From: Candidatus Acididesulfobacter guangdongensis
GTDB lineage: Bacteria; SZUA-79; Acidulodesulfobacterales; Acidulodesulfobacteraceae
NCBI GenBank assembly: GCA_004195045.1
Contig: SGBC01000001.1
Span: 620,001 to 684,000 of the forward strand
Reading direction: 5' to 3'
Length of the DNA: 64,000 bases
Positions 25,501 through 31,689 of this stretch are shown in pieces. A model generated the notes under the pieces. The model worked only from the letters and a program-made list of their open reading frames with translations. It ran no database searches and was not told where the DNA came from. Position numbers and translations under genes: made by a program. The first letter of the stretch is position 1, and the number at the start of each line of letters is the position of its first letter.

Positions 25501-26220
25501 TTAGTAAGAGTTTATAATATTCAGCTGCATTTCCGTCAGCTGCGAAATAGCTTTTTTGGCGATAGCGCCGAATTTATTGATAAGTTCAAAATCTATTGGA
25601 GTTTTTTCTGCGCACCCCTGAATTTCGATTAATTTTCCGCTTCCTGTCATTACAAAATTAAAATCAAGTTCTGCGTTGGAATCTTCTGAATAATCAAGGT
25701 CAAGTAAAATTTCGCTATTTACAATTCCAAGGCTTATAGCAGCAACAGAATCGTAAAACGGCATCTTTTCAATCCTGTTCTGTTTTAATAATTTTAGAAA
25801 AGCCAAATGCGCCGCTATATACGCGCCTGTGATAGAAGCGGTTCTTGTTCCGCCGTCGGCGCTTATGACATCGCAGTCGAGCAGGAGCGTAATATCCGGA
25901 AAATCCGAGAAATTAGCTACCGTTCGCAGAGTTCTTCCGATAAGTCTTTGAATTTCTTGGGCTCTTCCGTTAATTTTACCCTTTGAAGAATCTCTCTGCA
26001 TTCGGGTCTGCGTTGAACGCGGAAGCATTGAATACTCCGCCGTAATCCAGCCTTGCCTTTTATCCTTTAAAAAAGGAGGAACTTTATTCTCAACGCTTGC
26101 GGTGCATATTACATGGGTATCGCCGCATTTTATCATACATGAACCTTCGGCATATTTCATGTAGTCCGGAATTATCGTTATTTCTCTCATTTCATCAAAA
26201 GCGCGATTTTTTTTTCTCAT
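25501..26220 (-). CDS. rph: Ribonuclease PH
   Basis: Phosphorolytic 3'-5' exonuclease that trims tRNA 3' ends. Recognised from the N-terminal YAEGSCMIKCGDTHVICTAS, the WITAEYSMLPRST segment, GRAQEIQRLIGRTLR and DCDVISADGGTRTASITGAY. The 239-residue length is normal. It is separated by 171 nt from the TusA-like gene upstream and precedes nth in the same direction. Confidence 0.95.
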   Translation of the reverse strand: MRKKNRAFDEMREITIIPDYMKYAEGSCMIKCGDTHVICTASVENKVPPFLKDKRQGWITAEYSMLPRSTQTRMQRDSSKGKINGRAQEIQRLIGRTLRTVANFSDFPDITLLLDCDVISADGGTRTASITGAYIAAHLAFLKLLKQNRIEKMPFYDSVAAISLGIVNSEILLDLDYSEDSNAELDFNFVMTGSGKLIEIQGCAEKTPIDFELINKFGAIAKKAISQLTEMQLNIINSY

Positions 26221-26391: not shown

Positions 26392-26640
26392 CTATACCGA
26401 CGTCCATTTTTTATTCCGGATAAAAAACATATAAAGACCGTTAAACTTAATTGTATTCAAAAGTTTAGTACCTACTAACGAACATACGGACGGTATGTCG
26501 TTAAGCATAGACTCCTTATCAGATATTACCATAAGCGTTGCTTCAGGTTTTAATGCTTTTAGTTTTCCGACGACCGCCAGAACAGGAGGTCCTCAGCATA
26601 AACCCCTTATGTCTAAAGTATTTATCGAGTCCATCTCCAT
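26392..26640 (-). CDS. tusA: TusA-family sulfur carrier, candidate selenoprotein (in-frame UGA)
   Basis: Reading from the ATG at 26640 with UGA at codon 16 (26595-26593) decoded as one residue gives 82 residues. The sequence is an N-terminal MEMDSINTLDIRGLC, the UGA, then GPPVLAVVGKLKALKPEA, SDKESMLNDIPSVCSLVGTK and LLNTIKFNGLYMFFIRNKKW. The TusA/SirA pattern is LD-x-RGL-x-C-P-x-P-VL, ...S-x-x-DIP-x-x-C-x-x-x-G...L and a final Y-x-F-x-I-[RK] strand. Every block is present at normal spacing, and the UGA aligns with the catalytic Cys. AGGAG stands 9 nt before the ATG. The gene is 103 nt after nusB on the same strand. Selenocysteine is the favoured reading; a pseudogene with one nonsense change or a sequence error is the alternative. 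No sel genes are in the window. Confidence 0.7.
26565..26582 (-). promoter_or_regulatory. SECIS-like hairpin downstream of the in-frame UGA
   Basis: On the mRNA, UUCUGGC-GGUC-GUCGGAA folds as a seven-base-pair stem (two G-U pairs) with a GGUC loop. The loop starts 17 nt after the UGA. Bacterial SECIS elements usually place the apical loop about 16-37 nt after UGA with a G in its first two bases; both hold. Weakness: the stem is short with two wobble pairs, and an alternative GACC/GGUC pairing exists. Confidence 0.5.
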
Positions 26641-26743
26641 TTTAATTTTCTCCTGTAATTTAAATTTAAATAATTTTAACTTATTATTTATTACGGCGCT
26701 TTGTAAAAATTTTTAATTTTTAGTATAAATAATTAAATTATAT

Positions 26744-27211
26744 TTATAAATTTATATTTTGAACCGCCGCATCAAGAACACCGTTGATAAAAAACGGAGA
26801 ATCTGCATTACCGAATTTTTTTGCTATTTCAATAGCCTCATTAATAGTGACATTTTTTGGAATTTCTGAATGAAACAATATTTCAAACATAGATTGCCTC
26901 AAAATGTTTCTGTCTATTCTTGACATCCTATCGATAGACCAATTTTTTGATACTTTTTGGATTAAAAAATCAATTTTGTCAAGATTATTTAAAGTTCCGG
27001 CTGCAATGTCTTTAAAAAAATCAAATATCTCCAAAGATTCTTTTTTTGTATATAATTCGCTCGCAGAGCTTATAAAACCGTTATAAATGAGACTTTCAGA
27101 GGCAAAATTCATAAAAAAAGCGTTAAGTCTAAATTCGGTAGAATCAATTCCGCCGTCCGCTTCATATAAAAATTGCACTGCAAGTTCTCTTGCCATTCTT
27201 CTTTTTGTCAT
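26744..27211 (-). CDS. nusB: Transcription antitermination factor NusB
   Basis: Small helical protein that joins NusE and NusG in antitermination of rRNA operons. The N-terminus MTKRRMARELAVQFLYEAD, the central WSIDRMSRIDRNILRQSMFE and the C-terminal INEAIEIAKKFGNADSPFF, then INGVLD, are NusB signatures. The 155-residue length is normal. It follows ribH by 50 nt, the common ribH-nusB order. Confidence 0.95.
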   Translation of the reverse strand: MTKRRMARELAVQFLYEADGGIDSTEFRLNAFFMNFASESLIYNGFISSASELYTKKESLEIFDFFKDIAAGTLNNLDKIDFLIQKVSKNWSIDRMSRIDRNILRQSMFEILFHSEIPKNVTINEAIEIAKKFGNADSPFFINGVLDAAVQNINL

Positions 27212-27261: not shown

Positions 27262-27732
27262 TTATTTTTTAAGTTTTGCAAATAACGTAACCATTTCAAC
27301 AATGGACATCGCCGCATCGAAACCTTTATTGCCCATTTTAGTGCCCGCTCTTGATATTGCCTGTTCTATCGATTCCGAAGTAATAATGCCGTAGCTGACC
27401 GGCGTATTAGAGTTAACTGCCAGCTCTGAAACCATTTTGGCAACCTGCTGCGACAATAGGTCAAAATGATTTGTTTCTCCTCTTATTAAAGTACCTAAGC
27501 ATATAATTCCGTCGTATTTTTTTGTTTCCGCCATTATTTTAATTGCCATGGGAAGCTCAAATGCACCCGGAACTTTAACCACTGTTATATCCGATTCGTT
27601 GGCGCCGGAACGTGTCAGATAATCTATCGCACCGTCCAAAAGTTTAGAATTTATAAATTCATTAAATCGGGATACGGCAATGCCGAATTTGAATCCCGCA
27701 GCGCTTAAATTTCCTTCTATTACATTATACAT
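27262..27732 (-). CDS. ribH: 6,7-dimethyl-8-ribityllumazine synthase
   Basis: Penultimate enzyme of riboflavin synthesis. Recognised from FGIAVSRFNEFINSKLLDGA, VPGAFELPMAIK, GIICLGTLIRGETNHFDLLS and GIITSESIEQAISRAGTKMG. Catalytic His lies in the ETNHFD motif. The 156-residue length is normal. It starts 23 nt after ribBA, so it is co-transcribed with it. Confidence 0.97.
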   Translation of the reverse strand: MYNVIEGNLSAAGFKFGIAVSRFNEFINSKLLDGAIDYLTRSGANESDITVVKVPGAFELPMAIKIMAETKKYDGIICLGTLIRGETNHFDLLSQQVAKMVSELAVNSNTPVSYGIITSESIEQAISRAGTKMGNKGFDAAMSIVEMVTLFAKLKK

Positions 27733-27755
27733 TTTAAAAGACCCCGTTTGCTTAA

Positions 27756-28982
27756 TTATTTTTTTATTGTTTTTTTATTATCAATGTGCAGTATATGACC
27801 CATTTTTTCTTTTTTAGTTGTTAAATAATGCAAATTTTTGTGCGTAGGGCAAATTTCAATAGGCACTCTTTCTACCACGCTGAGACCGTATCCTTCAAGA
27901 CCTATGATTTTTTTTGGATTATTTGTCATCAATTTCATTTTTCCGACACCCAAGTCGACTAAAATTTGAGCACCGACCCCGTATTCCCTCAAATCTGCTT
28001 TGAATCCTAATTTTTCGTTGGCTTCAACCGTATCATAGCCTTTGTCTTGCAGATTGTAAGCCTTAAGTTTGTTTACAAGTCCTATCCCTCTGCCCTCCTG
28101 ACTGAGATAGAGTATAACGCCCTTTCCTTCTTTTTCTATCATTTCCATGGCGTTCTTCAACTGGTCTCCGCAATCGCATCTTTCCGAGCCGAAGACGTCG
28201 CCAGTCAAACATTGCGAATGTACCCTGACTAAAATCGGTTCATCTTTTTTTATATCCCCTTTAACCAAAGCAACATGTTCTTTAAAATCAATATCGTTTG
28301 AATAGGCTATTATTTTAAATTCGCCGCCGAATTTTGTAGGAATAGTAGATTCAACCAATCTTTTTACATGTTTTTCATGTTTTACCCTATAATTTATAAT
28401 ATCCTGTATTGTCAAAATTTTTAAATCATGCTGTTTGGCAAATTCTATTAAATCAGGCATTCTTGCCATAGTCCCGTCATCTTTCATAATTTCGCATATT
28501 ACGCCGGCAGGTTTAAGTCCCGCAATAGCTGCAATATCGGTAGAACCTTCGGTTTGCCCCGTCCTGACCAAAACGCCTCCGTTTTTGGCGGTAATCGGAA
28601 AAATGTGTCCCGGTCGTACAAGGTCTGTCGGTTTTGCGTCATCTTTAACGGCGGTGAGTATAGTCTGCGCCCTGTCAAAAGCAGAAATACCTGTCGTAAC
28701 CCCTTCCGCTGCTTCTATTGAAACCGTAAAGGCAGTGGAAAATTTAGATTGATTATTTGCAGCCTGAGGAGGCAGATTCAGCTGGTCAGCTTTTTCCTGT
28801 GTTACGGTAAGACATATTAAGCCGCGTGCGTATTTTGTCATAAAGTTTATTGCTTCCGGCGTTACCATCTCGGCTGCCATGGTGAGATCTCCTTCATTTT
28901 CTCTGTCTTCATCGTCAACTAAGATAATCATTTTACCTTTTTTAATTTCTTCGGCTGCTTCTTCAACCGTTGTCATCGGCAT
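27756..28982 (-). CDS. ribBA: Bifunctional DHBP synthase / GTP cyclohydrolase II
   Basis: Fusion that supplies both precursors of riboflavin. The N-terminal DHBP synthase (1 to about 205) has [17 protein letters not shown] and RPGHIFPI. The C-terminal GTP cyclohydrolase II (about 206-400) has the zinc motif [15 protein letters not shown], then [12 protein letters not shown] and [11 protein letters not shown]. Both active sites look intact, so both activities are expected. It is 57 nt after ribE. Confidence 0.97.
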
Positions 28983-29039
28983 AATAAAACCTCTTATTTT
29001 TTTAAATTTAATTTAATTTAAGTTAATTGTTCAAGCAAT

Positions 29040-29792
29040 TTATTTGAGAAAGCCGTTTTCATAAAGAAATTCACGGGTTATATCGGTCTGTTCCGCTCTG
29101 TGTTTCATGGTTATATGCGAGTTTTTATTGTAAGTACTATGTTCTGCGTTATTGTCAAGATTATTGCTGCCTGTGCTTGCTGCAGAGCCTGAATTTTTAA
29201 GCAGTCTTTCAGAATTATTTATGACTGCTTTTTCTATTATATCAAATTCGATATTGACAAACTCACCTATTTTTATATCCCCTAAATTTGTAAACTTGTA
29301 AGTCAAAGGTATGATGCTCACGTAAAAATCATTATTTTTAATTTCATTAATTGTCAGACTAATGCCGTCAACGGCAATCGAACCTTTGTCGATTAAATAT
29401 TTGGACGATTCGGGAGCGTTATTTGCAATACCTATTATGTAGGCATTTTTATATTGGCGTTTATTTATAACTTTTCCTGTTCCGTCAATATGTCCTAATA
29501 CAAAATGCCCGGATATATCGCTATTTACCGATAAAGCGGGTTCAATGTTAACTTTAGTTCCGGTTTTCATATATTTTAACGACGATTTTTTAAATGTTTC
29601 CGGCGAAAAATCAAAATATACAGTCTTAGCATTTATACTTCTTACGGTCAGACATATTCCGTTAACGGCTATGCTCTGACCTATGTAGGATTTCACGGAG
29701 CATTCAGGAAGATAAACCCCCAATATCCCGCTGTTTGAACTAAATGTTATAGATTTGACCTCGCCTTTTTCTTTAATTATTCCGGTGAACAT
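29040..29792 (-). CDS. ribE: Riboflavin synthase alpha chain
   Basis: Dismutates two lumazines to riboflavin. Two lumazine-binding repeats are visible: MFTGIIKEKGEVKS with AVNGICLTVRSI, and VLGHIDGTGKV with AVDGISLTINEIKN. The domain ends near residue 195. A further 55 residues are rich in Asn, Ser and Thr and finish with ITREFLYENGFL. The whole is longer (250) than the usual 200-220 because of the Asn/Ser-rich stretch. It lies between ribD and ribBA. Confidence 0.94.
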   Translation of the reverse strand: MFTGIIKEKGEVKSITFSSNSGILGVYLPECSVKSYIGQSIAVNGICLTVRSINAKTVYFDFSPETFKKSSLKYMKTGTKVNIEPALSVNSDISGHFVLGHIDGTGKVINKRQYKNAYIIGIANNAPESSKYLIDKGSIAVDGISLTINEIKNNDFYVSIIPLTYKFTNLGDIKIGEFVNIEFDIIEKAVINNSERLLKNSGSAASTGSNNLDNNAEHSTYNKNSHITMKHRAEQTDITREFLYENGFLK

Positions 29793-29852
29793 AATTTATA
29801 TTTTAATAATTTATTTTAATATTTTAATTTACAGTCTGGTTTATTTAAAAGA

Positions 29853-31232
29853 TTATGATTCTGGATAATAAATTAAAAAAATATCGTCGCCAGTTTTTTT
29901 AATGTCCAAATTTTTTAATTTAATCAACTGTTTATTGGTGTATAAATCATTCAAGCCGTCTTTAACGGCATTCCCGGTCTGTAAATTATTATTAAATTTA
30001 TTTAAATTAATATTTGAAAAATTAATTAAATCGAATGCGCCTATAGAATTTCCGGCAGAATTATTAAAACCTGCAGCCGTACTGTCAATAATATTAATAT
30101 TCCCTATCAGATAAGGCGTTATATTAAATATTAATTTATCGTAAAGTTTATTTGATATAAGATAAGCAAATAAATTTGGTCCAGGCTCTACAAATATACT
30201 TGTAATACCGTATGCTGCGCATTCTTTAAAAATACAGGCGATGTCAAGATAATGTTTTTTTTGTAAAACATCGCAGTCGCTGCCGATAGTAAAACCATTT
30301 TTTTCGGCACTCTCGGCTGAATAATTTTTTAATCTGTCTTCATAGCTATTATTATATAACACTTCTTTTATAATTGCACCTTTTTGTTCAAGCAATTTTT
30401 TTCTTTTTAATTTTTCTTCGCTATATTTGAAAGAGGTGAAAATAAAAATTTTATCGCCGTCATTTTTATATTTGAAAAGTTTTGAGTCGGCAGGAGTCAT
30501 AAGATTTGAGTCAATAATAATTTTTGCAAACTTTTTGTCGGCAATGATGTTATCCTTAGCGTATCTGATATTTAATCTTGGATTATCGCTTATAACCGTA
30601 TTGGCAGATACCATAATGGCGTCATGCATAAGCCGCAAATTATGAGTATATCGTAAAGATTTTTCCGATGACAGATAAAACTGGGTGTTGTTCAGGGCAT
30701 TATTTTTACTATCCACCGCTGCATTTTTATGGGAAAATCCAATTTTTCCGTCTATACTGACTGCAAGTTTGATTGTAATAAAAGGAAGTTCGGCGCTAAT
30801 ATTTTTCAGGAATATTTCGTTCAGTTTTTTTGCCCTGTCCTCTAAAACGCCATATTTGACATCAATTCCGTTATCCTTGAGATATTTGAACCCTTTACCG
30901 GAAACTAAAGGATTAGGGTCTTTCATGGCTGCAACCACGCGCGAAATTCCGTATTTTTTTATTGATTCAACGCATGGAGGAGTTTTTCCAAAATGACTGC
31001 AGGGTTCTAAACTTACATATAAGGTTGCCCCTTTCGCGTCGCTGCCTGCCATTTTAAGAGCAATAATTTCAGCATGCGGTCCTCCTGCTTTTTTATGATA
31101 TCCAGATCCTATAACTTTGCTATTTTTAACAATTACGGAACCTACCATAGGATTGGGAGACGTTAAACCTGCAGCTTTTCTTGCAAGATTTAATGTTTTG
31201 GCAATGTAATATTCATCGATGCGGTCAGTCAT
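29853..31232 (-). CDS. ribD: Bifunctional pyrimidine deaminase/reductase RibD
   Basis: Catalyses the deamination and reduction steps of riboflavin synthesis. The deaminase domain has the zinc motifs GPHAEIIAL and SLEPCSHFGKTPPCVESI. The reductase domain begins near ITIKLAVSIDGKIG and continues through DNPRLNIRY and FVEPGPNLFAYLI. At about 460 residues it is roughly 90 longer than usual; Asn-rich inserts in the reductase half account for this. A TTG 15 nt upstream is in frame inside the nrdR end, but the ATG one base after the nrdR stop is the natural start. No FMN riboswitch was found ahead of nrdR-ribD. Confidence 0.94.
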   Translation of the reverse strand: MTDRIDEYYIAKTLNLARKAAGLTSPNPMVGSVIVKNSKVIGSGYHKKAGGPHAEIIALKMAGSDAKGATLYVSLEPCSHFGKTPPCVESIKKYGISRVVAAMKDPNPLVSGKGFKYLKDNGIDVKYGVLEDRAKKLNEIFLKNISAELPFITIKLAVSIDGKIGFSHKNAAVDSKNNALNNTQFYLSSEKSLRYTHNLRLMHDAIMVSANTVISDNPRLNIRYAKDNIIADKKFAKIIIDSNLMTPADSKLFKYKNDGDKIFIFTSFKYSEEKLKRKKLLEQKGAIIKEVLYNNSYEDRLKNYSAESAEKNGFTIGSDCDVLQKKHYLDIACIFKECAAYGITSIFVEPGPNLFAYLISNKLYDKLIFNITPYLIGNINIIDSTAAGFNNSAGNSIGAFDLINFSNINLNKFNNNLQTGNAVKDGLNDLYTNKQLIKLKNLDIKKTGDDIFLIYYPES

Positions 31233-31233
31233 T

Positions 31234-31689
31234 TTATTTTTTTTCAATTAAATCAGATACTGTTTCGTATAATTCGTTTATATCTTTAAACGACAGATAG
31301 ACTGAAGCAAATCTCACATAGCTTATAGCATCGATATTTTTTAGTTTATTAAGAGCAAATTTTCCGATTTCCGTACTTTGTATTTCGTTCAGACTGCTTT
31401 CCTCAATCCATTTTTCAACTGATTGGATTATAGTTTCTATATCTTCTATGGAAACAGGTCTTTTTTCACATGCTTTAATTAAACCGTTCAATATTTTCTG
31501 TCTGTCAAAAGCTTCGCGTCTGCCGTCTTTTTTAATAATTAAAGGCAACGACATAACAATCGTTTCTAATGTATAAAATTTTCTGCCGCAAAAATTGCAC
31601 TGCCTTTTTCTGCGGACTGCTTTGGCATCTTTAGATAATCTTGAATCTATAACTTTATCGTCTTCGCTTGAACAAAACGGACATTTCAT
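31234..31689 (-). CDS. nrdR: Transcriptional repressor NrdR
   Basis: Nucleotide-sensing repressor of ribonucleotide reductase genes. The zinc ribbon (MKCPFCSSEDDKVIDSRLSK ... QCNFCGRKFYTLE) is followed by the ATP-cone domain (VIKKDGRREAFDRQKILNGL equivalent) and ends with YVRFASVYLSFKDI. The 151-residue length is normal. Its stop is one base from the ribD ATG, which suggests translational coupling. It is the first gene of the minus-strand riboflavin series. Confidence 0.96.
   Translation of the reverse strand: MKCPFCSSEDDKVIDSRLSKDAKAVRRKRQCNFCGRKFYTLETIVMSLPLIIKKDGRREAFDRQKILNGLIKACEKRPVSIEDIETIIQSVEKWIEESSLNEIQSTEIGKFALNKLKNIDAISYVRFASVYLSFKDINELYETVSDLIEKK

Follow-up and report, generated by a model that had tools for sequence, protein, structure and literature searches.

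TusA proteins pass sulfur between proteins as a cysteine persulfide, and in E. coli TusA the catalytic residue is the Cys of the RCPEP site. In bacteria, the SECIS element that accompanies selenocysteine (Sec) insertion is a hairpin just past the UGA codon with a small apical loop containing G (PMC1088965). Members of Ca. Acidulodesulfobacterales are potential sulfate reducers and possible sulfide oxidizers in which sirA and sirA-like genes are expressed (PMC6776010), and they inhabit metal-rich acid mine drainage (PMC6776010). Here we describe a TusA-superfamily gene of this uncultured group, very likely encoding a selenoprotein. Its product shares with TusA/SirA proteins (PF01206; 3lvj, 1dcj) the fold, the length, the D-x-x-G-L-x-[C/U] site before helix 1, and the DIP-x-x-C motif. 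Unlike them, it has a putative Sec at the catalytic Cys position, preceded directly by an additional Cys and followed by Gly in place of Pro.

The tusA gene and its in-frame UGA

The gene, which we call Sec-TusA, lies on the minus strand at 26392-26640 of the window, the whole 64,000-nucleotide stretch of DNA that was analyzed. Its frame (26640 to 26392) opens with an ATG, nine bases after a Shine-Dalgarno sequence AGGAG (26650-26654, minus strand), and runs through 15 codons, a UGA, and 66 codons to a TAG stop at 26392-26394, giving 82 residues including the putative Sec16. The translation, MEMDSINTLDIRGLC-UGA-GPPVLAVVGKLKALKPEATLMVISDKESMLNDIPSVCSLVGTKLLNTIKFNGLYMFFIRNKKWTSV-UAG, contains a single in-frame UGA. 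This is codon 16 (26593-26595, minus strand), which lies in the motif DIRGLC-U-GPPV and corresponds in the alignment to the RCPEP Cys of E. coli TusA. Codon 15 (TGC, 26596-26598, minus strand) encodes an invariant Cys beside it, forming a Cys-Sec pair where relatives have Cys-Cys. The GCGGTCGTC stretch is found a single time in the window.

With the UGA read as Cys, the product matched the Pfam TusA family PF01206 with an E value of 9.2e-11 (41.9 bits against a cut-off of 28.6). The score for the TusA equivalog NF001423 (NCBIfam, tRNA 2-thiolation) was below the cut-off (44.8 against 78 bits), and the YedF model TIGR03527 was not met (14.6 against 110 bits, E 0.02) by this protein of 82 residues and one domain. 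Nor was the CPxP active-site motif of canonical TusA, the corresponding residues being UGPP with Sec for Cys and Gly for the first Pro. A structure model predicted the beta-alpha-beta-alpha-beta-beta fold of TusA (pLDDT 91) and placed Sec16 in the loop preceding helix 1; its best PDB matches were the E. coli TusA structures 3lvj, 3lvk, and 1dcj, with TM values of 0.77-0.82 for 3lvj. By sequence and fold, the protein belongs to the TusA superfamily as an active-site variant and is not a canonical TusA.

A sequence-only reading of this DNA had placed an in-frame UGA on the catalytic Cys of a minus-strand TusA gene at 26392-26640, which held on the evidence of the frame, the Pfam match, and the presence of the UGA in 27 of 30 genomes. 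Its canonical-type motif around the Cys required correction, since the site here reads RGL-C-U-G-P-P, with Gly replacing the Pro that directly follows the catalytic residue in CPxP. Its statement that UGA is a normal stop elsewhere in the window also held (5 of 44 long ORFs), and two Sec-TusA orthologs (L025 and L037) themselves terminate in UGA. As to its remark that gene callers would miss or split the gene, callers that treat UGA as a stop would end it at codon 16 in all genomes of the group. The proposal that Cys15 is the resolving partner of Sec16 remains an inference; in an eleven-row alignment of subfamily members with Sec or Cys, Cys15 and Cys53 were among 15 invariant columns, and position 16 was always Cys or Sec.

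The source genome (2.2 Mb, 5 contigs, 99% complete) encodes four further TusA paralogs, all with CPxP, one of which lies beside IscS and IscU (names assigned by eye). In the tree, the Cys-Cys and Cys-Sec forms were separated from these four paralogs with moderate support (89/86), while a single clade of Sec forms was not resolved: the L095 form described below had a long branch and most forks remained open. An apparent second Sec-TusA in one genome (G029, C4:49014) was rejected because another frame of that stretch encodes an intact CPLP TusA with a normal stop.

The UGA occupied the identical tusA codon in 27 of the 30 phylum genomes, representing six genera. Downstream of the UGA, where dN/dS was 0.06-0.28 wherever it could be computed, the gene is under purifying selection, that is, coding constraint. 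A plus-strand ORF at 26495-26716 was considered as the source of the codon conservation and discarded as a chance antisense frame, its cluster comprising only 5 of 24 loci. Homologs with stops at scattered positions would have refuted the sequence-only reading; none were found, and the homologs have UGA or Cys at one codon. Because the same triplet recurs in 27 separately assembled genomes, a sequencing error is very unlikely.

The gene belongs to a syntenic run of ribD, ribE, ribBA, ribH, nusB, tusA, and rph. In the window these genes, named from sequence and order, are all on the minus strand: ribD-ribE-ribBA-ribH at 27262-31247, nusB directly upstream of tusA at 26744-27211, and rph (RNase PH) directly downstream at 25501-26220; the synteny of nusB and rph is conserved. 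No partner in sulfur or selenium metabolism was found in the operon, the neighbors being the riboflavin genes, nusB, and rph. In one genome (G018, loci L104/L105), tusA is cleanly lost, leaving nusB and rph 24 bp apart. Since this genome retains selA and Sec-SelD, Sec-TusA is not essential for selenium use. Neither a Sec-TusA ortholog nor rph was found in two genomes (G002 and G024), so the tusA locus is probably missing from these assemblies.

The SECIS-like hairpin and the selenocysteine machinery

The sequence-only reading had not examined a SECIS. A SECIS-like hairpin is present at 26565-26582 (minus strand), with a covarying 7-bp stem, UUCUGGC/GUCGGAA, and an invariant apical loop GGUC (26572-26575, minus strand) that begins 17 nt after the UGA. 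When the T of the UGA is numbered 1, columns 14-20 pair with 25-31 and the loop occupies 21-24. Over 24 distinct sequences, 95% of the cells were paired, and double-sided changes were seen in three stem pairs (U-A to A-U; C-G to U-A; G-C to U-G or U-A). The covariation score was 0.363 against 0.167 in shuffles, none of 500 shuffles scoring as high. Because the shuffles ignore relatedness, this count is not a probability; slid versions of the hairpin, which keep relatedness, gave scores of at most 0.115. RNAalifold recovered the identical hairpin. Furthermore, codons +6 to +8 (GCG GTC GTC), which lie over the loop, showed zero synonymous change in 27 distinct sequences, a synonymous identity of 1.00 against roughly 0.2-0.9 elsewhere; the exceptions to that range were one fixed Phe codon and the thinly sampled codon +5 beside the loop codons. 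In the window, GTC accounts for 15% of Val codons and GCG for 17% of Ala codons. An Rfam scan of the window at gathering scores gave no match, and minimum-energy folds of single sequences did not always show the hairpin. As these folds were inconsistent, the case for the hairpin rests on covariation and codon constraint. With a covarying stem and GGUC at +17 nt, it fits the description of a bacterial SECIS, as inferred from sequence alone.

Absence of sel genes from the genome would have spoken against the sequence-only reading, but a complete set was found in the source genome: selA (575 bits), selB (312 bits over 1-578), tRNA-Sec with the anticodon UCA (TCA in DNA), and selD. Across the phylum, selA scored above the cut-off in 28 of 30 genomes, and selD with one in-frame UGA was present in all 30, the UGA site reading HG-U-GCK in the source genome and in 12 loci read. 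In the source-genome selD (L087, 10974), the UGA falls at the catalytic HG-U-GCK and a hairpin loop lies 17 nt downstream. In the genomes that carry Sec-TusA, the SelD loop begins at the same distance from its UGA as that in tusA. Because selD carries a UGA and the sel machinery is present, these cells very probably translate UGA as Sec in a well-known selenoprotein that is independent of Sec-TusA.

Relatives of Sec-TusA and their neighbors

Scanning of a genome collection revealed Cys-Cys forms in two MAGs, one of Chromatiales and one of Nitrospiria, and in a Thiodiazotropha; a set of 369 genomes from Thiodiazotropha's class yielded another two. Relatives outside the phylum that have Cys at the UGA site are L084, L085, L086, L102, and L103. 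Because the collection scan relied on just two peptide patterns, the true range of Cys-Sec and Cys-Cys forms may be wider. A profile search of 386 genomes gave six matches outside the phylum at E <= 1e-15; all were set aside as canonical CPxP TusA proteins, mostly encoded beside IscS/IscU-like genes.

UGA forms also occur on two contigs binned as Nitrospirota (L081 and L095), and among 396 Nitrospirota genomes only these two matched at E <= 1e-9. The L081 form is 54% identical and has the same hairpin, on a contig with 52% GC and different neighbors; its bin contains selA and a truncated selB. The L095 protein is 36% identical to that of L081 and has the motif RGLC-UGA-GDPV, with GGUC again 17 nt past the UGA. 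This locus (G033:C117:5832-6038, also L097) adjoins a PhoB/PhoR-like pair, and the same bin also holds a Cys-Cys form. Since neither selA nor a full selB was found in the L095 bin, the contig may have been assigned to the wrong bin, or this bin may be incomplete.

In Thiodiazotropha's class, which is gammaproteobacterial, the gene immediately after three of the Cys-Cys forms encodes a MerR-type regulator akin to metal sensors. Multi-Cys MerR regulators follow the Cys-Cys TusA at L085 (5761-6693), L102 (1019-1961), and L103 (1018-1737), and in L085 and L102 a small HMA-like protein, recognized by eye without a Pfam hit, precedes it. Within the phylum, Cys-Cys paralogs (L106, L107, L108, and L109) adjoin a TetR regulator and, in three of the four cases, also a nitroreductase (names by eye). 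L108 has two tandem TusA-like genes, one with a CSSCC stretch. Inferred from neighbors only, the MerR and TetR/nitroreductase genes hint that the subfamily could be used under stress. The Sec form has no MerR, TetR, or nitroreductase partner at its locus. Plasmid records gave no match.

Proposed function, rival explanations, and known systems

The tusA product is very likely a selenoprotein in which UGA is decoded as Sec at the sulfur-carrying position. The claim of a Sec-TusA is supported at the level of sequence, from which it is inferred; protein or 75Se evidence is absent. In the proposed translation step, for which sequence support is strong, SelB with Sec-tRNA(Sec) would recognize the hairpin, with its GGUC loop 17 nt past the UGA, and insert Sec16. 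The predicted fold and the alignment support a product with the TusA fold whose Sec16 occupies the persulfide-carrying position of TusA, in the loop that precedes helix 1. Its function, whether sulfur, selenium, or metal handling or thiol redox, is inferred only. We propose that Sec16 would form a selenenylsulfide by taking up sulfane sulfur (or selenium) and that the invariant Cys15 would resolve it, forming a Cys15-Sec16 bond to be reopened by thioredoxin-type reductants; these two chemical steps, taken jointly, are untested and in our view as likely to be wrong as right. The protein may then carry chalcogens through redox cycles, in cells whose sulfur traffic is heavy. A bolder reading, which we regard as falling slightly short of probable, is that this is the first TusA-superfamily selenoprotein, a dedicated sulfur/selenium carrier that works on a Cys-Sec pair through a selenenylsulfide rather than a persulfide, and that it has been kept in most of the phylum and is also present on the two Nitrospirota-binned contigs. 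Sec at that atom would alter the nucleophilicity of the site and how stably sulfur is bound, which raises the question of why one phylum wants it. An 82-residue domain with solved Cys homologs is a small system for studying selenenylsulfide transfer, and the Cys-Cys relatives supply a natural Sec/Cys pair for comparison.

Two rival explanations concern only the chemical step. The first, which remains possible, is a role in metal, metalloid, or electrophile stress, the Cys-Sec pair binding or transferring Hg, As, or similar. Adjacent Cys-Sec may do likewise in other families, the CU motif being found in MerB-like SaoL, HgcA, SaoC, and MbdU (PMC13188914); Cys-Cys relatives precede the MerR-type gene, Cys-Cys paralogs in the phylum lie by TetR and nitroreductase genes, and the habitat is metal-rich (PMC6776010). 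However, the Sec form lacks such neighbors and the inducer of the regulator is unknown. The second, selenium delivery as a carrier to SelD or a tRNA selenation enzyme, draws support from the TusA-domain protein YedF, which is tied to SelD by gene neighborhood and co-occurrence (PMC2432076, PMC5322559), and from the UGA-containing SelD in 30 of 30 phylum genomes. We consider it unlikely, because no sel gene lies beside tusA in the flanks seen and G018 retains selA and Sec-SelD without Sec-TusA.

The remaining rivals concern the UGA itself. Suppression or a code change might have it specify a different amino acid, Trp or Cys, or it might serve as a regulatory stop with conditional readthrough; any such decoding would keep the frame open. 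This is very unlikely, as UGA terminates other genes and even two tusA orthologs, tRNA-Sec (UCA), SelA, and SelB are present, relatives have Cys at the site, and the hairpin spacing equals that in SelD. The UGA could instead be a nonsense mutation or a miscall, the TusA gene being dead or misread. A stop in one gene of one assembly would alone permit this, and the loss of the gene from G018 would agree with it, but it is all but excluded by the identical UGA in 27 separately assembled genomes, the dN/dS well below 1 after it, the lack of further internal stops, and the covarying hairpin.

Returning to the Sec-TusA reading, we compared the protein with described families. With the Cys-Cys TusA subfamily it shares the D-[IV]-x-G-[LIM]-C-C motif, followed by an SDK ... 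D-[IM]-P stretch, whereas in the Cys-Cys forms a Cys codon stands at the UGA site, the GCGGTCGTC stretch is not conserved, and the gene neighbors are different. YedF (TIGR03527, SirA-like) likewise contains a TusA-like domain and has been linked to selenium (PMC5322559), but it carries a C-terminal DsrE domain, which Sec-TusA lacks, and was described without Sec. TusA, SirA, and PF01206 are absent from an inventory of 119 prokaryotic selenoprotein families dated May 2026 (PMC13188914), and no Sec-TusA, SirA, or TusA appeared in the other open-access prokaryotic selenoprotein literature that we searched, which does not exclude an earlier annotation. Sec rhodaneses, DsrE-like proteins, and Sec YeeE/YedE (PMC13188914) resemble Sec-TusA in having Sec in sulfur transfer or transport proteins, while their domains differ from TusA. 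It is thus highly probable that Sec-TusA represents a new selenoprotein family within the TusA superfamily, which would add one family to the prokaryotic selenoproteome.
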